A stretch of DNA of 64,000 nt from assembly GCA_004335835.1 (NCBI GenBank), contig RWJK01000869.1:22495-86494 (forward strand), read 5' to 3'. Position numbers and translations under genes: made by a program. The stretch is from Scenedesmus sp. ARA3. Lineage: Eukaryota; Chlorophyta; Chlorophyceae; Sphaeropleales; Scenedesmaceae. Below the pieces are notes generated by a model. The model was not told where the DNA came from. It saw only the letters and a program-made list of their open reading frames with translations, and did no database searches. This document shows positions 270 to 58,900 of this stretch, piece by piece. Numbering within the stretch: the first letter of the stretch is position 1; each line of letters begins with the position of its first letter.

Positions 270-585
270 GCCCTCACTGCGCGGGGGCCCAGCTGCTTAA
301 TGCCATTGACAGCAGCCTGGGCATGGAGTACACGTTGCTGCTGGCACCCACCATCCTGCTGCTGCTGCTGCTTGTATTCTTCAAACCAGGCCCTCACTGC
401 GCGGGGGCCCAGCTGCTTGACGCCATTGACAGCAGCCTGCTGAGCATCCGTCCGCGCTGTTGCTGATTAATTTCCCTTCTGCTGATCAAACGCCCTGCTG
501 CTGCTGCTGCTGCCTTTCCCCCAGGCCCTCACTGTGCGGGGGCGCAGCTGCTTGACGCCATTGACAGCAGCCTGCGCAAGGAGTA
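270..585 (+). repeat. Three copies of an exon-start segment with acceptor
   Basis: The segment beginning CAG|GCCCTCACTG occurs at 270, 390 and 525, spaced 120 and 135 bp, each about 55 bp long and preceded by a CTG/CCG-rich tract and an AG. All encode a version of PHCAGAQLLDAIDSSL. Only the third continues into a long open exon. The copies differ by several substitutions, so they are not simple assembly stutter. Confidence 0.85.
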
Positions 586-1025
586 CAGCCTGGAGGGGGT
601 GTACCAGTGGATGACGCATGCTATTATTCCTATGCATGTGCTGGCGGAGCTGGTGGTGCACTCATACCCCTACAAGGCTGACATACACATGACGCTGCTG
701 GTGAGCCCTGCTGTAGTTCAAGTGCTGGCTGGGTGCATGTGTTTACAGTGTGTGCATGTTGTGTGTGCACTCCTATCCCTACAAGGCAAACATACACATG
801 ACGCTGCTGGTGAGCGCTGCCTGTGTGTTTGTGGTGTGCATGCTTGTGGGCTGCTGTGTGTGCTTTGAGTTTGGCCGTTTGTCGTTCGGTGTACGGGCAG
901 GTGGCGCAGTTGGATGAGCATTGGAGCAGTGGTGTACTTCCGCCCCTACAACGCAGACATCCACATGACGCTGCTGGTGAGGTAGAAAGGGGGGGGGGGT
1001 CCGTCTGTGCCCCTGCTCACAGCTG

Positions 1026-1078
<53 letters not shown>

Positions 1079-1374
1079 AGGAGCTGATGAGTGAGCAGGA
1101 GATGCCCACGCTGACGGCGGTGCAGCAGCTGCAGCTCAGCCAGCTGCAGCAGCAGCAGGACCGGCTGATGGCGCAGCAGCAGCAGGCAGCGGCGCTGCTG
1201 GCGCAGCAGCAGCAGACAGCCGCCATGCTGAGTCAGCAGCACGCTGCCATGCAGATGCTGCAGCAGCAGCAGATGCTGCTGGCTGGCGGCAGCAGCATGG
1301 AAGACGTGCAGCAGCAGCAGCAGCAGCAGAATGGGGGGCTTGGGATGACGATGTATGCCGGATATGGCTTGTAA
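525..1374 (+). CDS. 3' end of a Gln-rich protein gene of unknown function
   Basis: Two exons are visible, 525-700 and 1081-1374. The upstream part of the gene lies before the window or is unclear. The first exon enters in phase 1 after a CCCAG acceptor, encodes 58 codons including AQLLDAIDSSLRKEY and HSYPYKADIHMTLL, and ends at a GTGAGC donor in phase 0. The last exon starts ELMSEQEMPTL and is dominated by Gln-rich heptad-like sequence (QLQLSQLQQQQ, MLSQQHAAMQMLQ), probably coiled coil, ending at TAA. I do not recognise the family and assign no function. Both edges of the first exon have extra copies nearby, so which copy is spliced is not certain. The reading frame and splice signals support a real gene; the exon choice is less sure. 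Confidence 0.6.
659..976 (+). repeat. Three copies of an exon-end segment with donor
   Basis: A 36-42 bp segment encoding PY(K/N)A(D/N)IHMTLL followed by a GTGAG donor occurs at 659-700, 768-809 and 941-976. The copies are diverged from each other. The first is in frame with the exon starting at 525. Confidence 0.85.
1027..1077 (+). repeat. (CTG)17 tract abutting a 3' splice site
   Basis: Seventeen uninterrupted CTG triplets are followed directly by CAG and the last exon of the gene at 1081. The tract occupies the place of the usual polypyrimidine tract. Confidence 0.9.
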
Positions 1375-2683
1375 GCACGGCTGCCGTGTATGTGTTGGTG
1401 CTGGCGCATGTCGCGTGATGTATGATGCAGGTGCAGCCTAGCTGGCTGCTCTGCTGAGGCGCTGTGTTGTTTGGGCGGTGCGGGGTGTTGGCAGGCGCAT
1501 GCATTGACAGCCAGAGCAACTGTTAGACACGACGTAGAGGTGCCGCAGCATGTGGCAACATGTGGCCTTCAATGGTGGCCGACTAGATTATGTGCACGCG
1601 TTTTGTGACTTGATCTTGGTTGGTGGTGTTTTTTACGAGTTGTTGTGGGCATCTGTGAGCTGATTAAATCTGCCTGGCGCGCATGTCCAGGCAGCAGCCC
1701 GCTGCGCTGCTGCTGCTGCTGCAGCAGCACAGCTGCCAGGCTGCGCTGCGCCAGCAGTGCTTCGCGCGGACGCATGCGGCGCTGCCTTGCTTGCTGGTGC
1801 TGCTGCTGCTCCATGAACTGCAGCAGCAGCGCAGCTGTGGTGGCGGCGTGCGAGGGGTCAAGACACACTACGAACTAGCGGCCGTCACTCAACACATCAA
1901 AACATGCCTTAGATACTATCTAGTAGTGTTTGACAGTGAGTAGAATGTGCACAGGTTGGAGGTGTCTCGCTGTGGGAGCGGGCCCCGGCATGCGGCAGGT
2001 CATATGCAGGTCATATGCACCACGCATGCAGCCACAGCGGGCTCACAAGCACCACACCAGGTTGGCAGCAGCATGCTGCACAGCCATGGGCCGCGGCGGC
2101 GTCTGCTGCTGCTGCTGCCACAGCTAGCTATGGCCCTCTGCATGTGGCGGAAGTTAGTTAGTAGCTGATGGCAGCGCTGCTCCTGCTGCTGGCATCGGCT
2201 GAGGAGCCAGCAGCTGCAGGCGCATGCGGTTGTGTTTTTTTAGCGCCAATTGAGCGCCTGCTCCGCCAGCAGTAGCAGCTGCACCAGCACAATCATTGGC
2301 TGCGGCGTTGCTGCGCCAGGGCAGTGCTGCAGCACGTGCTGCTGAAGCATGCCTGTGTCATGTGCCAATTAGAAAGCGGCACATGTTGGGTTCAGGCATT
2401 ACGATGTAGGTGGACGCATGTTGATTGGCTCGTTGTGTGCCTGCAGCTACACAGCATGACACCGCCGCCGCTGCTTGTGTGCACCAGCGCATGTTGACTG
2501 GTATCTGTGGTGTGTGCGTGTGTGGCTGCCGTTATGCGCAGCTGAGGTGCTGAATTTCTGAGCCTGGGGGGAAAGTGTGAGGTGTGACTGGTCAGTCGGT
2601 CTCGGCCGACAGTCAGCGCACGCCTGCTGACGTTTTCTGATAGTGTGAGGTGTGTGGTTTGATGCTTCAGTTGAATGGGGGCC

Positions 2684-2731
2684 ACATTGAGAGAGGATTG
2701 TTACATGTGGGCACTGGCACCAACACATTGT
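2684..2731 (+). repeat. Dispersed 45-bp repeat, copy 1
   Basis: The sequence around GAGAGAGGATTGTTACATG, followed by GGGCACTGGCACCA, matches 27980-28024 at roughly 85 percent by eye. The surrounding sequence is not similar. It may be a fragment of a short mobile element. Confidence 0.5.
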
Positions 2732-4417: not shown

Positions 4418-5358
4418 GGCATGATGCCCTGCAGCCAGGCATGCCCAGGGTGTGCAGCGCTGCCATGTGCAGCACACACGTCTGCATGCTTGATGGCGGA
4501 GGCGCAACACCAACAGCATGAAGGAAAAACACCGCACCAGCGATTGCCACCTCAAAACGTATACAGAGGTTCAACGTGCTAGACGTCGCCATCCGCACGC
4601 CTACTATGATAGTATCCGTGAAGATGTCACCCGGTGCTGGGCCATCACAGACATCAGCACCAGCAGCATGAGTCGATGGGAGGCCCCGCCGCCATGAAAC
4701 TGCTGCTGTTCAAGGCTAGTAAACAAAAATTTGTATGGTAATCATAGTACAAGGGTACACCGGCGCAGCCACCTCTCGGCTAATGATGCTTTCAATGCCA
4801 ATGCCAAAACTGCCAGGGCAGAGGTGCGGCCGCCATCTGGTTGCAACAACCAACTATACAACAGACAGCAGAGCAAGGGCCAAGACACGACAAAAGCGCC
4901 TGGAAAAAACCAAGTCGTACTGCCCACAAGCCCCCCACCCCCTATCAGTCCCTACTGTATACAGCCACTGCGCAGCATTCACACATGGCACACACGCTGC
5001 AATTCCACCTTGTTGCCTACGAAATCAACCCCCCAAAAGTGCATTGACACCAGGCCCGCTGTCAGGTTGCCATCACGTGCCCCACATTGCATTGTCTGCT
5101 CACAACCCCACAGCAACGCCTGCTCAACCACGCGCTACTGGATCGCTGCCTCGCGCAACTGCTGCACAGCAACCCACAACACATCACACGCTGCCGCCAA
5201 CACTGCCCTGTGACTGTGCCCTGTTGCAACTTCCCAATGGCACCTCGCAGCCATTGCTGCGCCACGCCTGCTCCTCCCAAAACTGCTTGTGCTTCAGCCA
5301 TCCACAGCCGCGCCACCAGAAGAACAAGATACACGCACACACATGCATTGCATTCTGC

Positions 5359-5502
5359 ATGACTGCAGATACTGGTGTGAGCATGACTGCAGATACTGGT
5401 GTGAGCATGACTGCAGATACTGGTGTGAGCATGACTGCAGATACTGGTGTGAGCATGACTGCAGATACTGGTGTGAGCATGACTGCAGATACTGGTGTGA
5501 GG
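5359..5502 (+). repeat. 24-bp minisatellite, six copies
   Basis: The unit ATGACTGCAGATACTGGTG plus TGAGC is repeated six times with a single change at the very end. It translates as MTADTGVS in one frame, but nothing suggests it is expressed. The near-perfect identity indicates recent expansion. Confidence 0.95.
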
Positions 5503-10853: not shown

Positions 10854-10874
10854 CACAGTGTTAAACAGTTTGAA

Positions 10875-15353: not shown

Positions 15354-15447
<94 letters not shown>

Positions 15448-18065
15448 TAAAAGCAGAAGCAGAAGCGGAGCAGTGTGGTGCTTGTTCAGCAACGTGCAGC
15501 TGGCTTGTGGAGACTTTGTGTACCAGCTGTGCTACATGACGGCGCGGCAGGATCTCAGCACAGCAGCAGCAGCGCAGGCTGCCAGCTTGCTGCGCGAGCC
15601 AGCAGTGGCGCAGCTGCTGCTGCAGCTGCTGATAGTTTGCACCAAGTTACTGCACCAGCAGCACAGTGAGCAGCAGCAGCAGCAGGACAGCAAGCAGCAG
15701 CTGCCTGCAGACCTGCTGCCCATTCCTGCCTTCCACCAGCACCAAGACATGCTGCAGCTGCTGCCAGGTGGCCAGGCCTACCTGGATGCAGCAGCTCACG
15801 AAGCGGCCTCAACCTGCAAAGACAGCGCCTCCTGCGTTGCACGCATTCAGAAGTACACTGCAGCACTGCAGTCCAGCTTGGAGCAGATATCCATCCAGCA
15901 GCAGGGCAGCCTGGCGAGCATTGGCATCACCGCTGCGGTGTCGCCGGCTGCGATCATGCTGGTGCTGGAGCTGCAGCTGCTGGCAGCTGGCGCAGCGCAG
16001 CGCCTGCAGCAGCCGCAGCCTGGTATGACAACCACCAGTTCAACCTGCTGGCGTCCTACAACTCACTGCTAGAGGAGCAGCTGAAAGCAGCGCTGCAGGC
16101 CGGCAGCAGCAGCCTGCCACGCGAGGTGCTGCAGCGGGCTGGGCTGCAGCTGCTGCAGGCGCTGGCAGCGCCGCTGCAGCAGCTGCAGCTGACTGCGACC
16201 GGCGATGCGTGGCGGGCGCACATGGTGCGCACTGCTGCTGCAGGCAACCAGCCCGGGTCGTTTGGGCATGTGCTGCTGGCGCTGGGTGCTGCTGCGCCTG
16301 GGCTGACGGCAATGGACCTGATGCACGACGCACCTGGTGAGCGGGGTGACACTGTTTTCAGTTTGCATGTCAAGCTGTGCTTGCCTGACAGTCCTGTGGC
16401 GGGTGCCGTGTTGGCGCATTCTGTCATATTTAGAGCTTGCCGGTTGGTCAAGTTGCATGCCTGCCAGCAGTTCTTGGTGTGTTGTAGTGGTGATGCACCA
16501 GTGTCAGGCCGCGATTTAACAGTATATTCGTGACAGTGCAACCAATGTGTGCTCTCTCAATGGACCTGATGCACGGCGCACCTGGTGAGGGGTGACGCTG
16601 TGCTTGCCTGTGGCAGGTGGCGTGTTCTGGTGCACTTTGCTTGAGCTTGCTGGTCAACCAGTAGTGGTTGCCTTGCTTGTGGTGGCTGAGGTATCTGGCG
16701 AGGCGGGTGCAGCTGTGCTTGCTTGCCTGGCGGTGCTGTGGCAGGTGCCGCGTTGGTGCATTCTGCTGGAGCTCGCTGGTTGGTTGAACTGCATGCGCGC
16801 TTGTTGTGTTGTGGTGGTTATGCAGTGGTGTCAGGTCGCCAGTGCTGCTCGCCTTGTGCTGCAGGCAGGTGCACTGCATAAATGCCTGCGGGAGCTGGGG
16901 ATGGCTGCCTGCGCAGGAGCTGTATTGTTGCAGAGTTGTCTGATGCATTGTGTTTGGGGTATTGATTCATCGCGATTGATACAAACAGCCTGCAAACTGG
17001 ATGAATCAACTGGAGTTCTGTGTCAACACAGGTTGGAATCAACCCAGATGATGTGGCTGCTTTGATTGGATAGAATTGAACTATATGAGCGACAGTACAA
17101 CCGATGTATGCTTTGAGCAAAGTAGAATGCAAAGCTGACGCTGCAACCTGCTCCGTCTGTGTTTAACGCATCGCTTGGCGCAGGGTTGAAAGAGTCGCCC
17201 ATGTTCAAGCTGGCGGCAGCACACCCGGAGGCCTTCACAGCCCTGCTGGACTGCTTCATGCGCTCGCCAGCGCTGCAGGCAGCAGACATGATGTGCGCAG
17301 TGGAGGCGCTCGCACACGCAGCAAGTGCGGTGCTGATGAGCTCTGGTCCTGGCCGGCCTGCTGGTCTTGCGGGAGCGGTGCTGAGCCGTGCTGCTGGCCA
17401 GCCTAGCTTGCTGGGCAACACAGCAGCAGTGGCAGGCCTGGCTTCTGCCATCACCAGCTTCGCCAAGCGAGCAGTGCAGCTGACAAGGGCAGCGCTGCGG
17501 CAGCAGGGCCAGTCGCGCGTGGCGCCTGAAGCTACGGCAGCTGTGTACTTCCCCGGTGCACTCAACATCATCGCCAATGTGCTGAAGAACATTGTGGCCA
17601 ACGGCCTGTATCTAGCATCGCAGAATGCCAGTGCTGCTGGCGCTGCCAGCGCCGGCAGCAGCAGCAGCCAGGCTGCTGCAAGCATCGCCCTGCTGTCTGT
17701 GGTTGCTGCTCGTAGCCTGGTGCAGCTGGCAGATGCGGGCGAGGCAGTAGGGCCGCAGCTGCTGTTCAGGTGCAGCAGGGCCCAGCCTCGCTTCAAGCGC
17801 AAGTGGGTGGCAGTACAGGGCGGCACTCCCATCAATATGAATGCGCATGATTTGAGCGGCACACCTGACAAGCACACTGCGCCCGGCCAGTGGCAGGTCT
17901 GGCAGTTCCACCTGCTGCAGTCCATGCTGCAGGCGGTGTTTGCCTTCAATGTGGCGAGCGCAGCGCCACCACCAGCAGCAGCAGCAGCAGCGCCAGCAGG
18001 GGGCACGGCTACTATGCGAAGTGCAGCGACAGCAGGGCCTGCAACAACTGCGCGTGCTGGTGCAG

Positions 18066-24684: not shown

Positions 24685-25523
24685 TAATCCCATCCTTTTG
24701 AAGCACGCCTGCACTAAACTGCGCTGTATCCTCACCCTTGAGTGCATTACGCCATTCTCTGGTTTTTGGTTTCTGCAGTGGGCCAAGCAGCTGCTGGCGC
24801 AGGGCAACACAGTGGTGGCCACAGCGCGTGACCCCGCCTCATCCCCCGGCCTGTCTGAGCTGTCTCAGCAGTTCGGCGACAAGCTGCTGCTGACGTCACT
24901 GGAGGCTGCCAGTGAGGCCGGCATTGCAGAGTGGGCGGCGCAGCTCAAGGGCAAGGTGTCACACATTGACGTGAGTGGAGTGAAATCAATGCACTTGATG
25001 CACTTTGTTTGGGGGGGTTGGCTGCATGGGTGGCCTGACAGCACATGAGCAGCAGCAGCCCGGCAATGCGCCACGAGCTGAGGTGTGCACTCAGCATATA
25101 ACAGGCAAGTGCTGCTGTCTTGCCAGCAGAATGCACATGTTACACAGCACTGTGTGCTGCCCTCTCCTTGCCGCGCACTGTGCGCGCGACGCTTTGCTGC
25201 TGCTGCTGTTGCTGCTGCTGCCAACACTGCTGCTGCGCCAGGTGCTGATCAACAACGCGGGAATGAGCGTGGAGGGCTTTTGAGCTGCATTTCATGCTGA
25301 TTCTGCTGGCAACTCTGCTGCTGCTTACGCTGCTGCCCCAGGTGCTGATCAACAACACGGGCATGAGTGTGGAAGGGCTTCTGGACTGCGGTCCATGCTG
25401 CTGATACTGCTGCTGCTGCTGCTACTGCGTCGCCAGGTGCTGATCAACAATGCGGGCATGAGCGTGGAAGGGCTTCTAAACTGCGATCCATGCTGCTGAC
25501 ACTGCTGCTGCTGCTGCTGCTGC

Positions 25524-25582
<59 letters not shown>

Positions 25583-27370
25583 CTGCGCCAGGTGCTGATC
25601 AACAACGCGGGCATGAGCGTGGAGGGCTTTGAGGATGGCCTGGCACAGCTCAGCGCCAGCAGCCTGGGTGACACGCTGGCGGTGAATGCGTACGGGCCGC
25701 TGCTGGCGGTGCAGCAGCTGCTGAAGCAGGTGGGGGATATGGGCTGCTGCATTCCAGCACCCCCGCTGTAAAGCACACATCACACGTGATAGCAGAATGA
25801 TTGTGCAGCATGCTTTGGTGGGACAAGTAGTGTGCAAGAACAGCCCTGCAGAGTGCTACAGATGGTGCATTGCAAGGTGGGTGGTGGGAATGCGCAGGGG
25901 AGGATCACCTGCAGGGCAGAGCCGCGCAGTGGCCGTGATGAATGCACTGCATGCAGTGCGCCGGTGCAGCTGCTGCATGGCGCTTGCAGTGACTGGTAAT
26001 CAACAATGCGCAGCGTCCATGGGCTGGGGTGCCTTGCTGCTGCTGCTGCTGCTGCTGCTGTTACTGCTGTTCACCTTTGCGGTCGACTCTGCACCGCTGT
26101 TGAGTGCTCAAAGTACCTGCATTGGTCTTTCACAATGGCATAGCCCCAACACCATCATGGTGTGCACATGATGTGCACGCTAAGTTTTCTGCTGCCTTTG
26201 CTCAGCCGCCTGCTCGCTCTGCTGCTGCTGCTGCTGCTGCTGCTGCCGCCGCCACCGCTGCTACTGCTGCTGCTGCTGCTGCCGCTGCTCGCGCCCCCCA
26301 GGGCCTGCTGGGCGGCTACGGGCCCAGCCTGGTGGCCTACACCAGCTCCATCATGGCCAGCATGGGCGGCTTTGCGTTTCCTAACGCCAAGATGTACGCC
26401 TACAGGTGCGGTGCCAGCTTGGAACCTTGAGGGTTCTTTGTTGCCCTGAACGGGGGCTGCACATGCCGGTTCATTGTGCGTAAATGTTCCCCAGCGCTAA
26501 CCTTACAAATACAGTTGGCATGTGGACAGAGGTAGGATGTGCGAGATGCTGATGGCAATGCCAGGGCACAGCAGAAGTGTGCGAGGGTCAGTGGTACCGC
26601 TGTAGCCTTCAAGGCATGCCATGACAGTGTAAAGATGGACAGTCTAGCATGAAAAATGCAAAGCTGCGCACCCTTAAGCATCGCTGTGTGCATGACATGT
26701 GCAGCTCTGGCAGCGCTTCCCAACCCCTGCTGCAACGTTGCCGCTGCTGTAATATTGTTGCTGCCAACCGCCCCTGCAGGGCGTCCAAGGCTGCGCTGAA
26801 CATGCTGGTGGTGACGAGTGTGCAGGAGCTGACCGCCAAGAACATCACCAGCGTCATGCTGCACCCAGGTGAACTGGGAGCTGTTTCATATTGTCAGTCA
26901 CAATTTGTTGTTATGCAAGGTGCCTTGGAGGCAGGTGGAGGGTGCGTCTGCCAACAACATCACCATTGTACTGCTGCACCCAGGTGGATTGGGAGCTGTT
27001 TGCACAGCAGGGGGTGCTGCCTAGTCTTCTCATTTCGCACCTGAAGTTGGTGGGGTTGGGGTTTCGGCTGAGTGTCAGCAGCTGACCTTGCCAGCAGCTG
27101 GCAGCCAGCGCTGCGCTGCAACTGCAGCAGGCCCCAGCAGACGCAGCGAGCGCACAACGTCACAGCACGGCGCGACTCAGCACCACGCAATGCAGTTGGT
27201 CGAGGCGCATGCCAGCCGCACCTCTGCCAATGTTATAATTTACAGTCATGCTGCCTGCCCGCTGACAGCAGCCGTTGCTGCTCCCCTTCCTGCTGCTGCT
27301 GCCTGCTCCAGGCTACGTGGCCACCGACATGCCTGTCGCCTGCCCACTGAGAGCAGCCGCATGTCTGACA

Positions 27371-27404
<34 letters not shown>

Positions 27405-27558
27405 TGCCCCAGGCTACGTGGCCACCGACATGACTGCGGGCCAGCCCGGCACCATCCCCGCCGCTGAGAGCGTGGCGGGCCAGCTGAAGCTGCTGCAGGA
27501 CGGGCGGCCCCTCAACGGCAAGTTCTACAGCTACACAGGAGAGGAGCTGGCCTTCTGA
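24420..27558 (+). CDS. Short-chain dehydrogenase/reductase (classical SDR)
   Basis: Six exons (24420-24479, 24779-24970, 25592-25729, 26302-26405, 26780-26868, 27413-27558) join in phase to 242 residues, a normal classical SDR length. The cofactor motif TGASRGIG is at residues 11-18. The structural motif INNAG opens exon 3, the catalytic Ser lies in YTSSIMASM, and Tyr and Lys lie in YAYRASK, split by an intron. PGYVATDM follows the active site as usual. ATARDP after strand 2 is typical of NADP(H)-preferring members, so NADPH-dependent carbonyl reduction in the cytosol is likely. The substrate cannot be read from sequence. Four exon edges of this gene have extra copies in introns or the 3' UTR. 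Confidence 0.93.
25242..25635 (+). repeat. Four tandem copies of SDR exon 3 start with acceptor
   Basis: CAG|GTGCTGATCAACAA and the following codons for VLINN(A/T)GMSVEG occur at 25242, 25342, 25437 and 25592. Each copy follows a CTG-rich tract and its own AG. Only the fourth continues as the real exon; the first three reach stops within about 20 codons. Copies 2 and 3 share GAAGGGCTTCT and are closest to each other. Confidence 0.95.
26950..27001 (+). repeat. Copy of SDR exon 5 end with donor and intron start
   Basis: CCAACAACATCACC through CTGCTGCACCCAG|GTGGATTGGGAGCTG repeats the true exon 5 end (CAG at 26868, GTGAACTGGGAGCTG) 115 bp downstream. Both the exon side and the intron side are duplicated. 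Confidence 0.9.
27312..27333 (+). repeat. Copy of SDR exon 6 start with acceptor
   Basis: CTGCTCCAG|GCTACGTGG and CCACCGACATG repeat the true exon 6 start at 27413, 101 bp upstream. The sequence CTGCCCACTGAGAGCAGCCG between them recurs again farther upstream, so the unit has been copied more than once. Confidence 0.9.
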
Positions 27559-27607: not shown

Positions 27608-27635
27608 GCTACACAGGTGAGAGGCTGGCCTTGTA
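27608..27635 (+). repeat. Copy of SDR terminal codons in the 3' UTR
   Basis: GCTACACAGGTGAG and GGCTGGCCTTGTAGGG repeat the end of the coding region (GCTACACAGGAGAG, GAGCTGGCCTTCTGAGGG at 27530-27561). Confidence 0.75.
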
Positions 27636-29163: not shown

Positions 29164-32100
29164 CTAGCTGTGCTGCTGCCCACCAGGCGGCTGCTGCTGC
29201 TGCTGCTGCTCCGCCACCACCAGCAGTGTCTGCAGCATGGCATCTGCAGCACCTGTCACCACCCCTCCAGCAGCCAGTGTGGCAGTCAGCTGTGCCAGCA
29301 CGCGCGGAGTCAGCAGCTCCCCTGGGAACACCAGCGGCACCCCTGGGGGGTAGGGGCACAGCAGCTCAGCGCTGATGCGGCCGGCAGCAGCAGCTAATGG
29401 TACAGTCTGGGTAGGGGCGAAGAAGGCGTCACGCGGCGACATGGGGGAGGGGCCAGGGTGGGCATCATGCTGCTGCTGCTGCTGCTGCTGCTGTGGGCTA
29501 GTAGGTTGGTCCTCATCGTCAGCTGTCTGTTTGACAGGTGGCGACATGTTGATCTTGCTCTTGCTGCTGCTGTGTATTGCAGCCGTGCTGTTCTGTATGC
29601 TGCCTGCTGCTACTCCTGCGTCTGGCTGCTGGGCCGAGGCAGCAGCAGCACTGTGTGGTGCATGGTGCAGCTTGCTGAGCTGGTCGAACCCGTGCAGCAG
29701 CGCCTCTGCATCGCCCATCACGCTGCCTGGGCCCACCACCAGCACCACCAGCTGCAGGTCAGGCGCGGCATCAGCAGCAGCGCAATGCAGGTTGCGGCAG
29801 GCGGAAGCGTTTCTCAAAAGCAGGGGAGGCATGCGGATGGCTTTGATCAGCATGCAGTCCTGCGTGTGTATGAGCGCATGTTTGCAGGCAAACAACACGC
29901 CTCAGCAGCAGCCAACACCCTGCAGTACCCACATGTCCTCGTTGCACCTGTGCTGTGGCCAGCTCAGCAGCAACATATGCCAATAAATCAAGTGCTGCCA
30001 GAATGCACAGCCTCAGCAGCAGCTGACACGCCTCGCACCTGTGCTGTGGCCAGTTCGGGTACAATGCTGTGCTGCTCCTCCAGCCACTGCGCAGCATCAA
30101 ACCCGCTCAGCCCCAGCCCCGCCACATTCACCACCAGCCTCAAAGGGTCCCAGCCACCCACCGAGGCCTCACTGCCGCAGCTGCCGCCCTGCAGCAGCAG
30201 CAGCCCTGGGATGGCTGCTAGGCCTGCCCGTGCTGCTGCTGCTACAGCCAGGGGGGTGTCCCAGGTGCCTGGTGTGGCTGCGTGGCGGCGTGCTGCGTCG
30301 AGGGAGGCCAGCAGCAGGTAGCTTGGGGAGGAGGTCTGCAGCACCTGCAGCAGCAACAGCAGCAGCAGCAGCAGCAGCGGCAGCGGCAGCACACAGCGCA
30401 AATGGGAGGTGGTACAGCACTCAAACTATGGCACCTGCTAGCAGCACTGCAGTGCTGTCGTGCATCCTGCTTCACCATGGCCTGCCTTCCAAAGCCCTGT
30501 GACCTGCACAAACCCACGCAGGGGTAGGATAGCACCTTCATAACCGCATTGCAGTTGAGAGCAAAGCCGGGCGTCTGCTGATATGTAGCTACACAACAAT
30601 CAACCTGGCTGAGCTACACCGACAGACAAAACTGCAGTAGACGCGTCGTGGCCCTCCTCCAAGCTGGAGGCCCCCGCCCACACACCTGCAGCGCCTTGCT
30701 GACGCCATCTCAGAATCAACCTCTCCATGTGCCGCCCAACCACACGCCTCTGCCCCTGCGGCTGCCCCCTCCCCTCCCCCCCTCCCATACACCAGAACAG
30801 TAAGCAGCCTCACCTGCAGCGCCTTGCTGACGCGGGCCGGGTCCACCCTGCTGCCCTGGCTGTGCAGCATGGCCGCCTGCGTCATCGCGCTCAGCACCTT
30901 GTGGCTGGACTGGGCCACCAGGTCGGCGCCAGCAGCCAGCGCAGACGGACTGCTGCTGCTGCTGGATGGCTGGCCTGCGGTGCATGCGAGTCAAGATGTT
31001 TGCGGCGGCTGGCGTCAGGCCTGGGAAGAATGGCTGGGTTGGAGATTTGCGATGCAGGCAAGCCAAACAGAAGCACACCTCGGGTGAGTCCCCGCACAAC
31101 AAGCGGGGCATGCTGCTGTGATGACTGCAACCTGCATCTGAATAAAGGCGGTGGAGTGAAAGTCCTGTACTACCTTGCAGGTGACGTGCGGAGCCACAAC
31201 CTGTGCTCACCTGCGGCTGGCTGGCCAGCTGCGACCTGCTGTCGCGAGTGTAGGTCCGCCTGCTGCTCCTGTAGTGTTTCCTGCTGCAGTATCAGATAGT
31301 CCGTCTGGTTCGCTACGCCATCCTGCTGCTGCTGTAGGTCCTCCTGCTCCTGCTGTAGGTCCTGCTGCTGCTGCTCTGCGCCATTCCACTGCCCCCGCAG
31401 GTCGTCTATCTGCTGCTGTAGACCCTCCTGCTGCTGTTGCAGACCCTCCAGCTGCTGCTGCAGGCCCTTCTGCTGCTGCTGCAGCCCCTTCTGCTGCTGC
31501 TGTAGGCCCTTCTGCTGCTGCTGCCATCCCTCCACTTGCTGCTGTGACTCCTCCTGCTGCTGCAGCAACTCTTCCTGCTGCCGCGCCAAGTGCTCCTGCT
31601 GCTGCGTCAACTCCTTCTGCTGCTGCTGTAGGACTTTGTGCTGCTGCTGTAGGCACCGCTGATACATCTGTGAATCAACTTGCTGCCGCCACAGCTCCTC
31701 CTCCTGTTGCCTTAACTCCTCCTGCTGCTGCTCCAACTTCTCATGCTGCTGCCCATACTCCTCCCCGTGCTGCTCTAGGTCCTTCCACTGCTGCTCCAAC
31801 TCCTCCTCCCGCCGCCGTAACTCCTCCTCCTGCTGCCGTAACTCCTCCCGATGCTGCTGCAGGAAAGCAAGGTGGCCTCCATGCGCCTCATCCACCAGCA
31901 GCGGCACACCCCGCTCATGACACAGCGCAGCCAGCTCTGCAGCAGCCACATACAGCAGCAGCAGACCCAGGTGACATAAGTGAAGTGATGCACCTGACAT
32001 TCAGTCCACACGCACATACACAACCACCCCACACTAGTGCAGGTGTGTATGAACTCTCGGTACTCAAAGATTGGCATTGCTATGAAGCAAGGCCGGGCGG

Positions 32101-35263: not shown

Positions 35264-37975
35264 TCAGCCCCTGGCGGGCGCCCTGCAGTCAGCCTTCTGC
35301 TCCGGCGTGGTGGGCACAGCGGGGCAGCTGCTGCACACATTGGCCGCATTGCAGTAGTGCGTGCCGGCCGGCTGCCGCACCTCGCAGCGCGTGACAGGCC
35401 CCACCTCCGGCACATCTTCCCTGCAGCACTGCTTGCCGAGCGTCCCGCAGTCGGGTGTGTTGAGGGTGCACGTGCCGATCTGCCCGCCCGCAAACAGCAG
35501 CGCCGCCTGCCAGTTGCCGCGGCAGTAGATGCCATCTTTCCCAGCCGCCGCATAGTTGCAGGGCTGGTACTTGAAGCGCCGGTTGTGCACCATGCCAGAG
35601 ATGCGCTGGTCAATCATGCTGGGGCAGCATGGCTCGCCAGGGTTGCCGCACGCTGGCGGCAGCGGCGCGCAGCGGCTGGTGCCATAGCCGCGCTGGAAAT
35701 ACCCATCCCAAGTGAGGCTGCGCGCGCCGCCGCCGGAGTTGAGCGGTGTTAGGCCTTGCTGCTTGTAGTCCGCCACCTTCCATACGCAGAAGCTGGCACC
35801 GTCTGTGCAGTAGGGCACGGGCTGGGTGGGGTCCAGCAGCCAGCGCTCCCGCACTACGCCGTCCTTGTTGGGCGGGCAGCAGCCGTTGTTCTTGGAGCCG
35901 CAGCGCGGGGGGAGCGGCAGGCAGCGGGGGGCGCCCAGCATGGTGTCCGCAGGGGAGGCGCAGTAGTCCTGCGGGTGTGTGGGGAGGTGGAGCGGGGCGG
36001 GGGCGAGGTGGAGAGGGCGGGGCAGGCAGGTCTAGGTGTGGGATGATGAGATTGTTTCCTACTTTGGAAAGCAAGATGCTGCGCATGACAAGTGGTGATG
36101 ACAGAGCACAGGTGGTCTACGTGGTGGCGCAGCAGTGAGCGAGCTGAGAGGGGCAGCCCTGGGTACTGATTGGGTCCTGCAGCATGCTCAAGGCTGCATA
36201 AGGCTGTTGCTTGCAGGAAGAGTATTGCTGTTGATGATCCGCTGCCTGCCTTACGCAGCAGCGGCCAGCTGCGCCGCACCTGCGGCCCGCACAGCAGCTC
36301 ACACTTGCTTGCAGGAACAGCATTGCTCGCAGCCGAGACCGTCTGCCGCCCACATGACCCAACCGTATCCGTCCCAGCCGCACCTGTGGCCCGCACAGCA
36401 GCTCTTTCTCAGCGCAGCCGATGCGCCGCGCTGCTGCGCCACACGGGTACCAGCGCTTGCCGCATGTGGCTGTGCTCAGCTTCCTGCGATTATGTTGTCC
36501 ACGAGGCAGCCGGGCAGCACGGCAGGCATGCTGTTTGAAAGTGGCGGGGGTAAAGAGGAAGCAGCGCGACAGCTGATCAGGGCTGCACTGCGCACTCCCG
36601 CGCCTTGTACCCGTGTGACTGCCGGAATGTGTCAGCTGCCAAAGCACAGGCCCTGCTGCTCTTGCCCCCAGCTGCCTGCTGCAAGTACTTCTTGTAGCTG
36701 CGCTGCACGGGCAGCTGCCGCCTCAACGCACCCAAACATAGCCGCTTGGCATACCTCTGCCCCCCTCCCCGCCGCACCTGCAGGTGCCCATGACCGCGCC
36801 TGAGCGCACCAGCCCCGGGTTTGCCGTCAGCCGCGTGAACATGGCGGTGCCGCCGTAGCCCACGCCCTCCACGATGCACGTCAGCCCCGGGCCGCAGCGC
36901 TCCGCCTCAGCCGTGGCGTCGCTGCTGAAGCAGCACGGCTGACCGGCCTGGCCGCAGGCCTGGTGGGGGGCAGGCGGCGCAGCAGGCGGGTGTGTGTGTC
37001 AGAGGGTCAGCAGGCAGCAGCAGTGCTGCTGTGGTGCTGTGTGCGTGCTCAGGGCTGCTGTGGATATGTCTTGCAACAGGATGAGACGAGTTTAAGCTGA
37101 TTGCTGCACCACTGGGTGTGGTCCCGCACGCCACACTGCAAGCACAGGCTGCTAGAGGTTCAACGCAGGAGGGGACTGGGCTCAGCAGCCAGCACAGCGG
37201 TCTGCAAAGCTGCTGCTGCAGTGGCCGTGGCAAGCAGTCGGCCTCAGCACGCGCCACCCTTGGGTCTGGCCCAGGGCGTCACTGAGCGGACGTGTCCAGG
37301 CACAGTGGCTGCAGCTGCTGGTTGCATTGCAGCATGCGGCCACGCACGCCACACAGCATGCGCAGGCTGATGGGAGGTCAAGCTGCAGGGATGCCGTGCC
37401 AGGCTCAGCTGCGCTGTGCCAGCAGCTTCACTGCTGCCCACTCACCGGCGGCGTGTCCAGGCAGACCTGTGGGAAGCGGCGCGTGCCGTCAGGGATGGCC
37501 GCCTCCTTGCTGGCAAACATGTAGCAGGCGCGGCCGCCCGTGCACTCCATGACGTCACATTCTGCACGACAGCAGCAGCGTGGAGGTGCGTGAGGCCAGG
37601 CAGCCACTGCTAGCGGCATCTGCTGCAACTCCGGCAGCTGGTGACACACGCGCAACAATAGCCGGGAAGTCCTCCAGCTAGTGACACACGCTGATGTTGT
37701 CCCTCCCTGCTGCCATTGCTCGCACAGCGCCCTCCAAGCCCTGTCCTACGTTACCCTGCCAGAATTGCTGCAGTCAGGCTGTTGAAGGGGCTGCCAGCTG
37801 GCTGTGCCTCACCTGATGCTAGGGTGCCTGGGGGGCACCTCGCGCAGCACAGCTGGCCCAGGCCTCCGCAGGCCTGCTGCAGCGCAGTGCTGCTCTGCTG
37901 CTTGGCTGCTGTGCTGCTGGTCAGACATGCAGCGGCGAGGATGAGCAGTGCCAGCGGCGCTGGGCGCCGCTTCAT
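35264..37975 (-). CDS. Secreted Cys-rich modular protein
   Basis: Five exons (37813-37975, 37446-37561, 36778-36959, 36384-36483, 35264-35968) join in phase to 421 residues. Residues 1-24 (MKRRPAPLALLILAAACL...) form a signal peptide. The mature protein carries about five modules opening with a C-G-x-x-x-x-x-C-C pattern: ACGGLGQLCC, ACGQAGQPCC, RCGSKNNGCC, ACGNPGEPCC and DCGTLGKQCC, each followed by further Cys pairs. These should be disulfide-bonded domains at the cell surface or outside. I do not recognise a named family; the pattern recalls small secreted Cys-knot modules. The fourth exon was accepted because it restores the phase and is Cys-rich (TCGKRWYPCG, ELLCGPQ); its end is also duplicated nearby. 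Confidence 0.8.
36280..36302 (-). repeat. Copy of Cys-rich gene exon 4 end with donor
   Basis: On the minus strand GAGCTGCTGTGCGGGCCGCA then G|GTGCGGC repeats the true exon end at 36384 (GAGCTGCTGTGCGGGCCACA, G|GTGCGGC), 104 bp downstream in the intron. Confidence 0.85.
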
Positions 37976-44901: not shown

Positions 44902-47900
44902 TCACAGCTCGTCACAGCCCCACTGGGGCCGCGAAAGCACCAGCGGCAGCGCCCAGTCGGGCACGTTATCGGGCAGCTGCGCCGGCGGGCACGGCCCGGC
45001 CTGCCTGCGCCTGCGGAAGTTGGGCGGCGTGTAGTAGGCTGGCCCCGGCAGGTTGAAGAAGGGCCGCGCAGGCACCAGCCCCGCCCTGTTAAAGTTGCGC
45101 ATCATGGCCAGCAGCTCAGGGTCGCAGAAGCTGGCCTTGGGGTCGCAGCCCACAGCGTCGGGGGACTGGCCTGCAGGGGGAGAGGGGGAGGCACCGGCAT
45201 GATGGCAGCAGCAGCACTGACTCAGTACATCTGAGATACATTGGCATGTATCAACCGTTAACGTTACATTACATTGTCCTCTTTTGATGGCGTTGATGCT
45301 ATGGCTTGATGGGTAACATGATGATGATGATGATTATTATGATAAGTTTGACCTGTCATATCATGTTCTCCTCAGTAAGCGGCTACGTGCGAAGATGGTG
45401 CTGCGGTGCGGCAACGTTGCCTCTATGGTTACCTCAACTGCTGTACGGCTGTTCTCACAGGACCGCTGTTGCATGTCATTGAGCCGATTTACACTGGGGA
45501 TGCTGCACCACTGAATCACTGATGCGCTGCGCAGCATCACTGTCACGTGGTGCTGTACATTTGCAAATGTATAAGCGCACATTGCGCCTGGTCCCACCTT
45601 TGGAGTCGGGGTGGTAGATGGCTGCCACGTCCCAGCTGCCCACAGGCCACAGGTATACCGCGTCAACAGCCAGCTCGTGGCTGCTGTCCCTCATGAAGGC
45701 CAGCTGCTGGCGCCACCACTCCATGCGGAAGGCCTTGGTCCACAGGTAGCGGAAGGGGTCCACCAGCTTGGGGGGACTGCTGTAGTCCTCGTAGGAGCCC
45801 TGCGGGGCAGGACAGCAGCAGCAGTGGCGGCAGCAGCCTTCAATGCAACTGCGCTGAGCCAATGTTGTAAAACCTGAGTCGAGCAGAGTCCAACCGGCCT
45901 GCAGAGTATGCGGCATGCATGCTGACAAATCATAGCCGCCTCTGCTACTTCTGTTTGACAACAGCTGCTGCTGCTGAATTGCAGCAGTGGCATGCTGGCT
46001 GATAGTCACAGCGTGTTAGAAACACGACTCAGCAGCACGGCCCCACCTGGCCGTTGAAGGCGTTCTTGCTGAGCTCTATGATGTCTGGCGTGGTGGTGCC
46101 GTCACAGCCAAAGTCGCGGCAGCCGCCCAGCCCGATCTCGTTGCTGATGAAGCCCTTACCCGCAGCGCGCAGGCTGGCCAGGCTCACGCCGCCAAACTGC
46201 TGCAGCTGGCTGGCAAAGTTGCGCAGCGACTGCGGCGCGTCCAGGGCCTTGGTGCTGGCGTTGTAGCGCTCCCACACTGCGGCACGGCGCACAGGGGCAG
46301 GCATAGTTCCAGAACATTGTCCTGCAGTGTAGGTTCTTGCAGATGCACAGCATGCTTTGCATCCTGTGTGGCAAGATATTGATGCTGCTGCACCCAGTGG
46401 CCCGGTGCTGGCGGGCTGCTCAGTGCTGAGGCCTAAGCAGCAGCTGTGGCAGGCGTAGCATGCACTCATCTGCTGTGCGCTGTGTGCTGTGCTCACCGTT
46501 GGGGTAGTTGGAGGTGCCCAGCATGTCCGCAACTTGCAGGAAGGCGCGGAAGGCTGCCCACTGCGCTGTGGTGACGCGCGTGGCAGGGCTGTAGGCGTCA
46601 CAGTAGTTGCTGCAGGCACGACACAGACAGCACGGCAGTAATGCCAGAAAGGCATGCAGTCGACGCCAAAGTGGGTCAGCATCGAAAAGTCAGCAGTGCA
46701 AGCCCATGCGGCAACATTCAACAAAGCAACCGCAGCCTGGCACCGCTTGCTGTATGTATGGCACGATGCTGACTGCAGAACCGCGCTACACATACACACT
46801 CGTGTGAAGATGCACTGCAGCAGATGCTGCTGTGTTGTACATTACAAGCTGTCTGATCACCATTTGCTGTCTAAATCTTGAAGCTGCTCTGCTGCAGCAC
46901 AACAGCAGCCCCCCCCCCTCCCACGCACCCGCAGAGCTTGGTGGGGTCAAACTGCGGGCCCACCGCGTAGCTGTCCACAATGGCTGCCAGCGCCGCCTGC
47001 ACTCGCTTCGTGACGCCCGCCCACTGCGCCCCAAACACTGTGAAGGTGCGGCCCAGCTCAGCGCCCAGGCCAAAGCTGATGGTGATGTTGCGGTTGGAGC
47101 CCACTGCTGCCTTGGCTGCGGCCAGTGTAGGGCGCAGCACCAGGCTCTCATAGGACCAGGGCAGCTTGGTGGTGCTGCCGATCAGGTTGACTGTGGGGTC
47201 AAACTCGGCGGCGTTCCTGCAAGCAGCAGGCAATTGATTGTTAATCACCAAGGGGAGCGACGTTTTACTGGCGAGCCATCCACAGCAATAAAGCTTACGT
47301 GACTGCCATCAGCGGCAGCAGGCATCGCCAGACTGCTGGACTTGTTGTGCTGTTATGCAGGGCCGCCTGCTGCTGTGTGGCCGTGGTGCCGTCTGCTGCT
47401 GCTGCTGCTGCTGCTGGCGTTCACCTCCAGGGGCAGCAGTCGGGCTGCTTGTAGTCAGCATCAATCATGGGGTTGAGGTAGATGTTGGCGAAGCCCAGCG
47501 ACACCGCAGCCGCCACGCACTGCGCAAAGTCGGCCGTGAAGGACGCCACATGGGCGGCTGTGGGCTCCACCTGCGCATATGAGGCGTCGCGCACCAGCCA
47601 CTGCACCACGCTGTGCCTGAAGTGCTTGTCTTCGTTGGTCTGCGCGTTGGCCGGCATGGCCCAGGTGTAGAAGAAGTAGGGCGCAAACTTGATGCTGCGG
47701 GGGTGCGAGGGCAGGCAGGGGCAGAGTTGCAGGGGCGCCAGGTGGGAAAAATGGCAGAGCGACGGTCAGCAGGTCACAAGTGGCAAGGCATGGGGAAGAT
47801 ACTGCTGCTGCTGCTGCTGCTACTGCTGGCATTTGCTGCCGTACATGGCGCACGGCTGTGCAGCATGCAGTCGGTCAGCGGCAGGGCACCGACACATTAT

Positions 47901-48288
47901 AGACTGCTGAGACTTTCTAAGCAGTGAGATATGCCTGGCGTCCTCCAGCTGGCAGCAAATCGGCAGCATGTGCTGCCAAGCCTCTTCCACAGCACTGCGG
48001 AGCTGAGGTCGCTGCATGCAGATCTTACGTTTTGTGGATTAGAGGCGCAGCCTCTCACCTGCTCCTGCTGTTGGGTGCGCCCAGCCTGCTGGCCACACGC
48101 TTGACCTGCTCGATGCACTTGGATGAGTTGCTGGCTGGGTCGAGCTTCCAGTCCGGCCAGCCAAACATGACCACAGTGGCAGCCACTGGGGGCCGCTGCG
48201 CTGCCGCCAGCTGCCTGGGTGCTGCTGCCGTTGCTGCAGCCGCAGCTGACAAGCACAGCAGTACCGTGTAGAGGCTACTTGGCTTCAT
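44902..48288 (-). CDS. Secreted glycoside-hydrolase-like protein (TIM-barrel type)
   Basis: Seven exons (48059-48288, 47425-47694, 46929-47216, 46497-46609, 46047-46276, 45598-45799, 44902-45170) join in phase to 533 residues. The N-terminus MKPSSLYTVLLCLSAAAAA is a signal peptide. The body alternates strands and helices as in a beta/alpha barrel: FAPYFFYTW, ANIYLNPMID, NITISFGLGAELGRTF (Glu about 220, acid/base candidate, followed by W and a helix) and KGFISNEIGLGG (Glu about 347, nucleophile candidate). The G-x-E and N/T-E-I-G pair is typical of clan GH-A enzymes such as beta-mannanases (GH113-like), which is an inference from motifs. A Pro/Arg-rich, Cys-containing tail ends the protein. 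It would act on polysaccharide in the wall or outside. Confidence 0.7.
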
Positions 48289-54272: not shown

Positions 54273-55951
54273 GGACAGTGCAATTGCAGAGAGTGGATGT
54301 CTTGCGTGGCAAAATAGATGCGCTGCTGTCAGCTTTGGGTGCCTCTGGCAACAGGCACTGCAGTGTCACACCGCGGTTGCCGTTTGAACTGGCACCATCG
54401 TCGAGCTATCCGGTCAGCTGCATCACGCCACTCAGCTGCCGTCAGGGTAATAGTTTGACAGCCCACTTGGTGGTTGCATCCCACCACCAAAGTGTGCGTA
54501 CACTGCAGCAGCAATACACGTACTGCTTTTGATATGTGCTCACAGCAGTCCAGAGCGTTGTGCGCTCGTTTAGCTGTTGAGCACCTAGCGGTTTGCTGCG
54601 GACATGTAGCTCGATCGTGCCTGTGGTTCCCTTGCATGCGTTCCATTTATAGACTTGTCCTATTTGCGTAGCCTCAGTGCAACCAAACCTCCAGTGCATC
54701 TTGGCGAGTCCGGCAGCGTGCCTGTGTGCTCCAGCAAGCAGCGCCATTGCAGCCCCACGGCTGCCCTCTGGCAGGGCTGTCCAATGTGTGGCACGCAGTT
54801 GTCAGCTCGCTGATGCTAGTGCAGCATTTGCCGGCAACTGCCATCCAAGCTGGTAGCAGACAGACGCCCCAAGTGCATTGTTATGTGCGTGCCGTCTGGT
54901 GCGCGTGCCATCAAGATGGTGTAGTTGAAGTTATCTGGGAGCAGCCTGTGCTTGTCATATAGATTTGGCATCAGAATTGCTGATGCCATACGGGTTGTGC
55001 GCTGTGTGGGCTGAGTCCATGCGGGCTGTGATGTGTGGCGCTGCCATGTTAGAGGCGATCACGCTGCCTGCTCATGATTACGTGATCAGCACTCAAACTC
55101 TGACTGGCATTATGGACCCCTTGCACACAGCACACTCAGGGAGCAGTTGCCAGCAGTGTCATAAGGCACAGCACTGCATGTTGGAATTGGTCCGCACTCT
55201 GTGACGGACTGCCTGCGTGGCCACCGTGCCTGGACAGTACCTCAGTCAAGGATTGATTGAGGCTAAGACGCATGAGTGCTAGTTAGCATGCAGTCGCATG
55301 CGCGGCACGGCACATTGGTGCGCTTGTACACGCTGCTCAGCAGCCTGCTGAGCTAGCGTCTAGCTGCGCAGCCTGATGGTTGCGCCTGGACGTGACGTGT
55401 GCGCCTTGGGGTTATATGTGCTCACATTTGGCATCAGGGAGCGTCGACTAGTTGTTAGTACTGTTGCCTGTGGTCTATGTGTGGCTGCAAAAGTGATCAT
55501 GTGCAGCAACGCTTTGTAATTGCATCAGCTTGCCATCCCATCGTCACACTGTGTTCTCGGCCACTGCTCGCATCATGATGCTGATCAGCGGTGCTGCAGT
55601 ACGCATATGGTCACCCAGCCCCAGTGCAATAGTGGGGCCAATGCAATAGTTTGCAAGCAACTGGTCTGCAATGGCAGCTGTCACTGCAACTGCAGGCGCG
55701 GCCATCACGTCCATAGCATGCATGCAACTGCCTGCAACTGCCTGCACAGATGAACCATCAGATGAACCATCACAGTCTGCCGCCCATTGCCTTCAGCCAA
55801 GTCTTTGTCACATGTTACCAATGGTTGATTGCAGTCATGCCGTATACAAAGCCAATTGCACCACTGCAAGTGCACAACTTGTTCGCGGCACCCTCACAAC
55901 TCCTGCACCACCTCAACATGCCGCACAGCGCACACCGCGGCCAGCAGTCCC
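54273..55951. other. Convergent 3' spacer
   Basis: Between the coiled-coil and AAA ATPase genes. No exon is supported. Short tandem copies occur at about 55720-55772 (CAACTGCCTG, AGATGAACCATC). Confidence 0.5.
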
Positions 55952-58900
55952 TCACATCTGCAGCACCTGCCCGCCATCCAGCCACGGCGCCTGCCTACCA
56001 GCGCTGCCGCCGCCGCCGTCCGCGCCCTGCCGCCGCTGCTGCACAGCGGCCAGGTAGTCGGCCTCCCCTGGCAGCTGCGCCTCATCCACCTGGCCCCGTA
56101 TGATGCGGCTGGCCCACTGCCGCTCAGTCTGCTCACACACGTCACGCAGGTCACGTCCTGCGAAGCCTTGCGTTTGTGCTGCGATGCGGCCCAGCGCGTC
56201 TGCCGGCAGGTGCTGCGCGTACTGCTGCAGGATGGCTGCGCGGCAGGCCTCATCGGGCAGGCCGAAGTGGATGGACAGGTCGAACCTGGCAGGCGGGGAG
56301 CAACGGCGCAAAGTGGTTGGCAAGCACGGCCTTTTATGCACATCAGGAGCATGGCAAGCATGGCAGCAACAGGGTGTTGTTTTGCAGTCATGAAGACAGG
56401 TACAATATGTAAGGTGAACCTCCTGCTAAGCCACTCCACTCTGCAGCAGGCAGCACAAACTCAGTTTGCTGGCTGCTTCACCCACCTGCTCAGCAGCGCA
56501 GCGTCCAAGTCCTGCCGCCTGTTGGTGGCGCCGATCAGCACACTGCGGCGGCTGGCAGCACCTCGCTGCTGCTGCTGCTGCTGCCCAAAGCCACCCCCAG
56601 CCCCTCCACTCCCTGCTCCACTACTGCTGCTGCTGCTGCTGCCGCCCGCCACGCTGCTGTTGTCGAAGCCGTCGATCTCCCTCAGCAGCACTCCCAGCAG
56701 CCTCCTGCTGGCCTCGAGCATGTCGGGCCGCTCCCTGCTGCCCGCCAGGCTGTCCAGCTCGTCCAGGAAGATCACGCAGCCACCCAGCGCCTCGCACGCC
56801 TTGAACAGCTGCAGGCGGCGCAAATTTAAATGGAGAGTGAGAATGAAGGTGGCATACTATGTTAGTAGCACAGAACAGCCGCCCATTGCCCCGCACACCT
56901 CAAACAGCTGCAAAGAGAGCACAGCGCTGGGTCAGCACGACATGCTCAGATTCGGGTTGCTGCAATGCAGACGTTGCCGCAGCCGCCTAGCGCCTTGCAC
57001 GACTTCGACAGCTGCACAGTCAGGGTCAAGTGGCCTGCAACACATGCAGAGTTGAGTGGCTGCAGATAGCTGCTTGGTTGTGTTACATGCCCACCAAGCA
57101 GCCATCGCTTGACACCCTCTGTACCATAGCTGATGCATAATGAGTTTAGTGTCCAGGCCCTCTCCCTCATGCCCCTACCTTGGCCATGTTCTGCTCACTC
57201 TCACCGCACCACAAATAAGCAAAAGCAGTGCAGCCCTCAACGTTCGTTCGAGCAGCAGTTGGAGCAGGTGCTGTTGCACGCAGTGAAACAAACTGGCCGC
57301 CCTGCAGCAACCGCCCCCACCCCTCCCACCTTGGCCATGTTCTGCTCGCTCTCCCCGTACCACTTGCTGGTCAGGCCCTCCAGCGGCACATACACCAGCG
57401 GCAGCGCCACGCGGCTGGACAGCACCCGCGCACTGCTGGTCTTGCCGGTGCCTGCAGCAGCAGCAGCGAGCACAAGCGCAGGACATGGAGGGCGGCTGTG
57501 GGGTGCAGCTGGTGCAAAGGAGTTGCAATGAGCAACAGAAACAGATGACGTCACAGCGCTTGTCTGCATGCCTGCAGGGTACCTTGGGGAGATTGATGAT
57601 AGTTGCGGCACTGAACCGCTAGACAACAATACACAATACAATACACCTTCGGGACTGAAGCCGACCCAAGGCACTAGCCCAGCAAACAACAGGCTGTGAC
57701 CATATATAACGTGCAAGGCTTGCTTCTGCAGGATCCACAATATGTTACACGCTGCTCAGCTCAGTTTGCGAGCTACAAGTCACCAGCGCAGCAGGCTGCT
57801 CTGCACAGCCCTAATGCCTCCAATCAGAACCATGTGGCTGCAGCAGCCCCGCCCAGCAGGCAGCCCACCTGGCGGCCCCTCAAACAGCACAGCACGCGGC
57901 CTGCTGCCGCCCGGCTGGGCAGTCTTGCGCGTGCGCGACGCAACACGCTCAAACACCTGGGCAGCAGCAGGGCAGCAGCAGCGCAGGCAACTGGCAACAG
58001 CCTAGAAGCATCCATGCACATCTCAATGCGTGACTCCACCCAGCAGAGCAAATTCATCCACTGTACCCGTAAACAGCCTGGCCCAGGCATCGCTTCATAC
58101 CAACCCCCAGCGCGCGCCTCATGCTCCCACCCTCAACACACTGCCATCCATTGCTGAACCCCAAGCTCAGCACTTCTACATCTTCACTTCAGACTTGACC
58201 ATTGCGCCCACCTCTGGGTGCTTCAGTGGCAGCAGCAGGTAGTCCTCCAGCGCCTGCTTCTGGGACTCATAGCCGGCAAGGCTGCCCCAGCCACACTCGC
58301 CACCACCACCATCATCGCCAGCAGCAGCAGCAGCTGTTCCGTCCTGCTGCTGGCTGGCCAGCGCGGCCGCACTAGGCAGGTACACCTGCGCGCCCAGCTG
58401 CTGCAGCTGCTGCACAGCAGCACGGGCGGCCGGGTGCTGCCACGGCTGCAGCTGCTGAGGCGGCGCCTGCGCCTGCTGGGTGGCAGGCGGCGGGGGGCCA
58501 TGCCCATTGCTGCCCCCATACCTGCTGCTTTCACTGCTGCTGCTGCTGCTGCTTCTAGGGAAGTCTTGCTGGTGCTGGTGCTGCTGTTGCTGCTGCTGGC
58601 GCGCCTGCTGCTCAAACTGCTGCAGCCATGTCAGCAGCTCGGGTGGGGCCAGCTCCCTCAGCTGCGCCTCAATGTGCTCCTCCAGCTCCTCAAGGCTGCT
58701 GAAGCGCCCGCTGCTGCTGCTGCTGCTGCTGCTGCTGCCGCTGCCAAAGTTGTCACTGCTGCCACTGCCGCCGCCCAGGTCGTCCAGCAGCGTCTTCCAG
58801 CTGCGCTGCAGCTCAGACTGCAGGGAGTGGAGCGTGGCGGCAGCACGGGCACGGCAAGCGGCAGTGAAACCATGTGTGATGCAAGCTCGCCTGGCTGCAG

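Follow-up and report, generated by a model that had tools for sequence, protein, structure and literature searches.

Why do the edges of exons in a green alga recur, together with their splice sites, in the introns beside them? The question is raised by a stretch of 64,000 nucleotides from Scenedesmus sp. ARA3 (contig RWJK01000869.1; C594:22495-86494), hereafter the window, which belongs to an 87.3-Mb genome in 1567 contigs. A preliminary description made from the letters alone had reported diverged copies spanning splice junctions on both strands. The sample analyzed here comprises about 251 kb of the 87 Mb, namely the window and further loci of the same genome, and in it the feature is real, both inside and outside the window. 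At a probability of roughly 0.6, the copies are read as minisatellite-like tandem arrays lying across exon boundaries, of the kind known as "mirages", that are carried as decaying passengers.

Exon edges and their copies in the window

Exons were mapped with an ab initio gene finder, trained on the window together with 20 loci from this genome and blind to the claimed copies. Its exon edges included all 11 of the claimed positions (525, 700, 16336, 25592, 26868, 27413, 30039, 30814, 36384, 56808, and 57330). Each edge, represented by 45 exon and 15 intron bases, was aligned to the sites of its copies, with random 60-mers from the window as the control. The alignments confirmed every one of the 16 named copies, covering 11 of 11 junctions, with scores of 39-103 over 22-56 aligned bases and identities of 81-100% (above 85% in 14 of the 16); at each site, 0 of 279-289 random 60-mers matched the score of the named copy. 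Self-BLAST with simple repeats masked recovered 14 of the 16, the misses being 56907 and 29948. The junctions of the preliminary description therefore stand, as does its copied SDR stop region, weakly; its count of seven genes has to be lowered to about six. The features are as follows, the template edges resting on the gene finder and targeted alignment unless otherwise indicated, and fractions giving matching over aligned bases.

525..569, +, start of exon 525-700, first 45 bases, template edge
263..314, +, upstream copy of exon start 525, 47/52
386..434, +, upstream copy of exon start 525, 47/49
656..700, +, end of exon 525-700, template edge
765..820, +, downstream copy of exon end 700 with GT, 51/56
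943..981, +, second downstream copy of exon end 700, 36/39
16310..16336, +, MYND-gene exon end, template edge
16558..16596, +, copy of exon end 16336, 38/39
25592..25630, +, start of SDR exon 25592-25729, template edge
25201..25523, +, intronic array of acceptor and SDR exon start, period 95, 3.3 copies
26835..26868, +, end of SDR exon 26780-26868, template edge (gene finder and alignment; joined to 27413 in the protein P0004)
26950..26998, +, copy of exon end 26868 with GT, 42/49
27413..27436, +, start of the last SDR exon, template edge
27297..27335, +, copy of exon start 27413 with AG, 37/39
27608..27632, +, weak copy of the SDR stop-codon region 27530-27554, 22/25, score 35
30039..30056, -, decarboxylase exon end, template edge
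29944..29965, -, copy of exon end 30039, 21/22
30814..30833, -, decarboxylase exon end, template edge
30683..30705, -, copy of exon end 30814, 23/23
36384..36404, -, Cys-rich gene exon end, template edge
36273..36300, -, copy of exon end 36384, 27/28
56775..56808, -, AAA-gene exon start, template edge (gene finder, AAA homologues, and targeted alignment)
56876..56912, -, copy of exon start 56808, 30/37
56978..57016, -, second copy of exon start 56808, 33/39
57330..57363, -, AAA-gene exon end, template edge
57174..57212, -, copy of exon end 57330, 35/39

The exon map is backed by Pfam matches (SDR, 7.7e-16; Orn/Lys/Arg decarboxylase, 1.5e-50; AAA, 1.2e-28; MYND, 1.3e-6), by SDR and AAA protein homologues, and by a GH18-like gene. 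A predicted seven-exon gene at 44902-48288 has 100% identity to the Tetradesmus obliquus (Scenedesmaceae) protein OEZ85_000443 over 92% of its length, and on the strength of protein matches the alga is very probably T. obliquus. In P0004, the protein of a cDNA-like contig, the C-terminal SDR part is identical to the window and joins 26868 to 27413, suggesting that the true edges are used at this one junction, which bears a copy on each side. The N-terminal part of P0004 is identical to another T. obliquus SDR, OEZ85_006644, which is why the contig may be chimeric; it may also be a true fusion. In six AAA homologues, 57330 is joined to 56808 without the copy piece that the gene model inserts, and the three residues of the predicted exon 56899-56907 are missing in six of six alignments. 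Other errors of the gene finder include fused adjacent genes, the calling of 323-449 as an exon, and a false 27-bp exon at 25056-25082 that is not present in SDR homologues. Both 323-449 and 56899-56907 lie in copies, and the mistaking of two copies for exons is a warning for annotation.

Two further repeats were observed in the window. The decarboxylase model contains, in or beside its domain, a long Gln/Glu-rich repetitive stretch of 21-bp repeats (31211-31936, minus strand), and a perfect 24-bp minisatellite of six copies lies within a predicted intron at 5357-5501.

Edges, interiors, and a bias toward exon boundaries

An anchored scan of 301 predicted introns, covering introns of 60-1600 bp, exons of at least 30 bp, and matches above low complexity, identified 39 copies, which belong to 33 junctions (21 donors, 12 acceptors). 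Twenty-four of the copies are spaced at 90-150 bp from their edge and one lies closer, at 86 bp. Among the 28 whose spacing does not exceed 160 bp, the median exon part is 36 bp, compared with 59 expected for uniform breakpoints (p 3.5e-5), and the median intron part is 69 bp. At least one copy is present in 15 of 47 intron-bearing gene models, and introns with copies have a median length of 394 bp versus 250 bp. A frame-keeping or frame-avoiding spacing was considered and rejected: 7 of 39 spacings are multiples of three (p 0.04), a signal that is lost at the level of clusters (19 of 63, p 0.69).

Tandem Repeats Finder, run strictly with periods of at least 80 bp, reported 12 arrays, nine of them on exon boundaries, one exonic, one unannotated, and one in an intron only; the last is the SDR array 25201-25523, which adjoins the exon at 25592. 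Relaxed settings gave 26 arrays, of which 16 lie on boundaries, 6 in exons, and 3 in introns, with 1 unannotated. The boundary arrays have periods of 114-214 bp, and the SDR array one of 95 bp. Arrays of three to four units are present, and several repeat intron and exon alike (loci L021 and L009; contig C414 at 12025). Judged by eye, the units of L021 look ordered a-b-a-b and the copies of L014 look mosaic.

Since the copies resemble a diverged homologous junction, they might be artefacts in which the assembly wrote two diverged haplotypes or paralogues in succession at introns. Copies of the donor and acceptor edges do co-occur in 4 of the 301 introns versus 0.84 expected, one of these being 26869-27412 in the window, and one amphioxus mirage is reported to have been misassembled in the draft genome (PMC3087553). 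However, the narrow 90-150 bp spacing and the arrays of three to four units argue against such an origin, and the same report describes amphioxus mirages as confirmed from trace reads. An assembly artefact is judged very unlikely.

To compare edges with interiors, 60-bp probes were matched to the introns; the counts cover exons of at least 60 bp, introns of at least 80 bp, and probes that were not mostly masked. At scores of at least 40, 22 of 234 donor-edge probes and 15 of 236 acceptor-edge probes (37/470) had a match within the 400 bp of intron next to them, versus 0 of 111 and 2 of 115 (2/226) for exon blocks 100-160 bp inside. The earlier statement that interior exon parts are not copied hence nearly holds. 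The direction was the same in 17 loci not chosen for content, where an adjacent-intron copy was found for 13 of 296 edges and for 1 of 170 blocks 60-120 bp inside (Fisher p 0.022). The corresponding counts were 14/141 and 0/106 in the discovery contig, and 10/33 and 3/23 (p 0.20) in C414, which had been picked for a match. With 30-bp probes placed around the junctions (at any one offset, at most 243 for donors and 237 for acceptors), the match rate was highest over the final 30 bases of the exon (8.1-12.8%) and over its opening bases (7.6-8.5%), most other offsets lying at 1.5-6.7%. A second rise in long acceptor exons, at offsets +130 to +150 (8.0-9.2% of 109-125 probes), perhaps reflects coding repeats.

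The phenomenon is not specific to splice sites. Coding-sequence stops matched in 2 of 21 cases at scores of at least 40 and in 3 of 21 at scores of at least 30, whereas coding-sequence starts matched in 0 of 26; stop-codon edges are thus affected as well.

A simple explanation would be pure ascertainment, in which duplications arise evenly, those inside exons are eliminated, and copies confined to introns become unrecognizable sooner, so that edges stand out. Intron sequence does gain many gaps (56 gaps per 116 differences in flanks), and intron-interior 60-bp probes match the rest of their own intron in 12 of 157 cases, a rate that pools copies of copies with minisatellites and warns that intron-intron repeats are not rare. 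The balance of repeat classes speaks differently. There are 99 local-repeat clusters with spacings of at least 80 bp: 60 (52 + 8) join an exon part to noncoding copies, 18 are exon-exon, 15 intron-only, and 6 unannotated. Because certain clusters are minisatellites or fragments of a single array, the 60 and the 15 are partly non-independent, and a number of the "exon" labels within arrays mark false exons. In a simulation with even tandem duplications, retained only if the coding exon stayed intact, and with constrained exons and decaying introns, the ratio of edge to intron-only repeats was 0.65, 0.87, 0.82, and 0.81 in four settings; periods were drawn from the observed copies and events were assumed to be independent. 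Against an observed 60:15, these ratios indicate that the edge excess is real in this sample: there is a bias toward exon boundaries beyond tolerance and decay. Ascertainment also sits poorly with whole-unit arrays, which are less affected by decay and lie on boundaries too, and with the short exon part of the copies, and it is judged improbable. Of the two explanations offered earlier, local tandem duplication at junctions is upheld, denser there than even duplication plus tolerance predicts, and selection tolerating only these copies is insufficient alone.

Decay of the copies and how they may arise

On the preferred reading, a local duplication, mostly of 90-150 bp, would span the splice site together with about 20-65 bp of the exon edge on one side and about 45-110 bp of the intron on the other. 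With the added unit lying inside the intron, splicing at the exon-attached site would leave the mRNA as before, and the copy would be tolerated. Some units would be duplicated again into arrays of three to four, and the intronic copies and spacers would decay while the exon remains under selection. Exon edges would begin or retain arrays more than the rest of the gene. Staggered-break fill-in or slippage near coding/non-coding boundaries is a plausible origin, perhaps with subsequent unequal exchange.

This scenario is consistent with the divergence of the copies. For 21 of the 39 copies, alignment of the intron flank surpasses that of 95% of random flank pairs, and in this alignable group (redrawn) the ratio of intron to exon distance is 1.59, compared with 1.45 reckoned if only the exon copy is constrained. 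At seven edges with at least two copies, where changes can be polarized, synonymous and other changes number 8 and 1 among those private to the exon, and 24 and 35 (15:16:28 by codon position) among those private to copies, against a null synonymous fraction of 0.314. Copy-private changes thus look near neutral, and for this reason a strong coding constraint on the copies, which had been suggested by mismatches in 29 pairs (28:20:81 over the codon positions) and by the synonymous share of pooled differences (78 of 126), was dropped.

The same data bear on whether the copies function as alternative or decoy splice sites under selection, for example by producing transcripts for decay. GT or AG is kept in 37 of 39 copies, compared with 1024 of 1282 exon dinucleotides, and differences lean synonymous; by sequence, use as decoy sites is possible. 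Yet with one copy counted per junction, the splice dinucleotides are kept in 31 of 33 cases versus 112 of 132 for adjacent exon, which is not clearly different, and neither the near-neutral copy-private changes nor the spacing, with its lack of frame preference, points to selection. Selected decoys are considered quite improbable.

Template switching or slippage at CTG/CAG tracts beside the junctions was suggested in the preliminary description. Such tracts do lie between the units of some acceptor arrays (25201-25592; L021 1868-2234), and acceptors with copies have them slightly more often (4/12 versus 66/289, p 0.48). In the 301 introns, however, there is no significant association: tracts accompany 3 of 21 donors with copies and 40 of 280 others, and 18 of the 21 copy-bearing donors are without a tract within 150 bp. 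As the copies are not associated with tracts, this mechanism is unsupported and must be held highly unlikely.

Several observations weigh against tandem arrays decaying as passengers. The edge excess is strongest in the discovery contig and the match-picked C414, and the intron-interior match rate is about that of the edges. Pooled exon-copy differences are synonymous in 78 of 126 cases, above the approximately 0.45 reckoned for a neutral copy, and a larger set distributes over the codon positions as 53:44:112. In 18 of the 39 copies the intron flank cannot be told from random, even with an exon part that is 80-100% identical, and the non-alignable group has an intron-to-exon distance ratio of 2.06, with 94 gaps. 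Finally, a pair of segments in C414 (11446-11582 and 11686-11822, or L027 1446-1582 and 1686-1822; minus strand, about 100 bp apart) shares 99% identity over 137 bp and ends 5 bp beyond the junction. The flanks and the C414 pair count here because a plain tandem duplication should bring the flank along; such cases suggest either breakpoints at the junction or a copying or homogenisation limited to the exon. The C414 pair includes 132 exon bases at 99%, preceded by TGCAG and followed by GTAGAT, and since 132 is a multiple of three, the copy could be usable as a cassette exon.

One way to obtain such boundaries would be an old duplication followed by gene conversion from the exon, possibly via cDNA or mRNA, that rewrites the exon-like part of the copies; with introns diverging freely, similarity would then end at the splice junction. 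In ungapped comparison, the 21 donor copies have identities of 0.81-1.0 over the last 20 exon bases and 0.81-0.95 at +1 to +3, and the profile falls at +4 to 0.24-0.52 as far as +40, except for 0.71 at +5. In L014, 44 exon bases are identical next to a spacer that is barely alignable (19 versus a shuffled 95th percentile of 18), and in L006, 38 bases are identical next to one that is not (12 versus 14). The C414 exon copy fits as well, and whether a flank aligns does not track exon identity (at 0.95 or above, 6 of 11 flanks align; below, 15 of 28). On the other hand, the 21 alignable flanks are consistent with a single clock, the arrays in L021, L009, and C414 at 12025 copy intron and exon alike, and the 12 acceptor copies fade more slowly, staying at 0.67 or above to 14 bases into the intron. 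Exon-limited homogenisation is accordingly regarded as unlikely. A broader alternative, in which boundaries themselves provoke duplication or exon-limited copying by an active process that pastes junction-cut exon ends about 110 bp into the intron, is doubtful but deserves somewhat more weight; if true, splice junctions would be hotspots of structural mutation, and introns would be lengthened.

Paralogues in C594 and C414 (L019 1484-1542 and L024 8887-8944; L019 holds 5,821 N bases) were observed to carry a donor-edge copy at seemingly the same exon. By eye, each copy is nearest its own exon, a pattern that might reflect repeated origin or concerted evolution.

Mirages in amphioxus and related duplications

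At about 4% of exon edges in unselected loci (13/296), and more near the discovery site, what was an oddity becomes a countable process. The arrays offer many natural tests of splice-site choice among near-identical sites, and a route to intron lengthening and perhaps to intron gain.

Their closest counterparts are the mirages, or mirage minisatellites, reported in the amphioxus genes Adh3, BflGb6, and BflGb9 (PMC3087553). As described there, BflGb6 units are 81-100% identical, many copies carry AG/GT, regular splicing is retained, and the arrays show length polymorphism and somatic instability; that paper, of 2010, describes mirages for only a handful of amphioxus genes and treats the mechanism as unclear. 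The algal repeats are the same kind of structure: the unit spans the exon-intron boundary, 5' and 3' boundaries are both affected, and the units are in tandem and of minisatellite length. They differ in their host, a green alga, in having been measured over 301 predicted introns, in the 90-150 bp spacing, and in extending to stop-codon edges.

Three other systems share parts of this picture. The Rogers model, with the intron gain in potato RdRp (PMC4974935), likewise involves a boundary-crossing duplication whose copy is hidden by splicing, but the potato gene gained a new intron, whereas the algal copies sit in existing ones. Novel intron positions in Drosophila (PMC2891723) likewise arose by tandem, partial exon duplication with splice motifs, there inside coding sequence at proto-splice sites rather than at existing junctions. 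Staggered-break fill-in (PMC8355091) is a candidate mutational route to short tandem duplications; that work concerns induced breaks in human and mouse cells with overhangs of about 43-50 bp, and the parts of it considered here draw no link to splice junctions. Among the matches listed from open-licence papers, by titles and abstract openings, there was no green-algal report of such repeats. The algal arrays are thus a known but rarely described kind of repeat, found here in a new lineage and in many genes.

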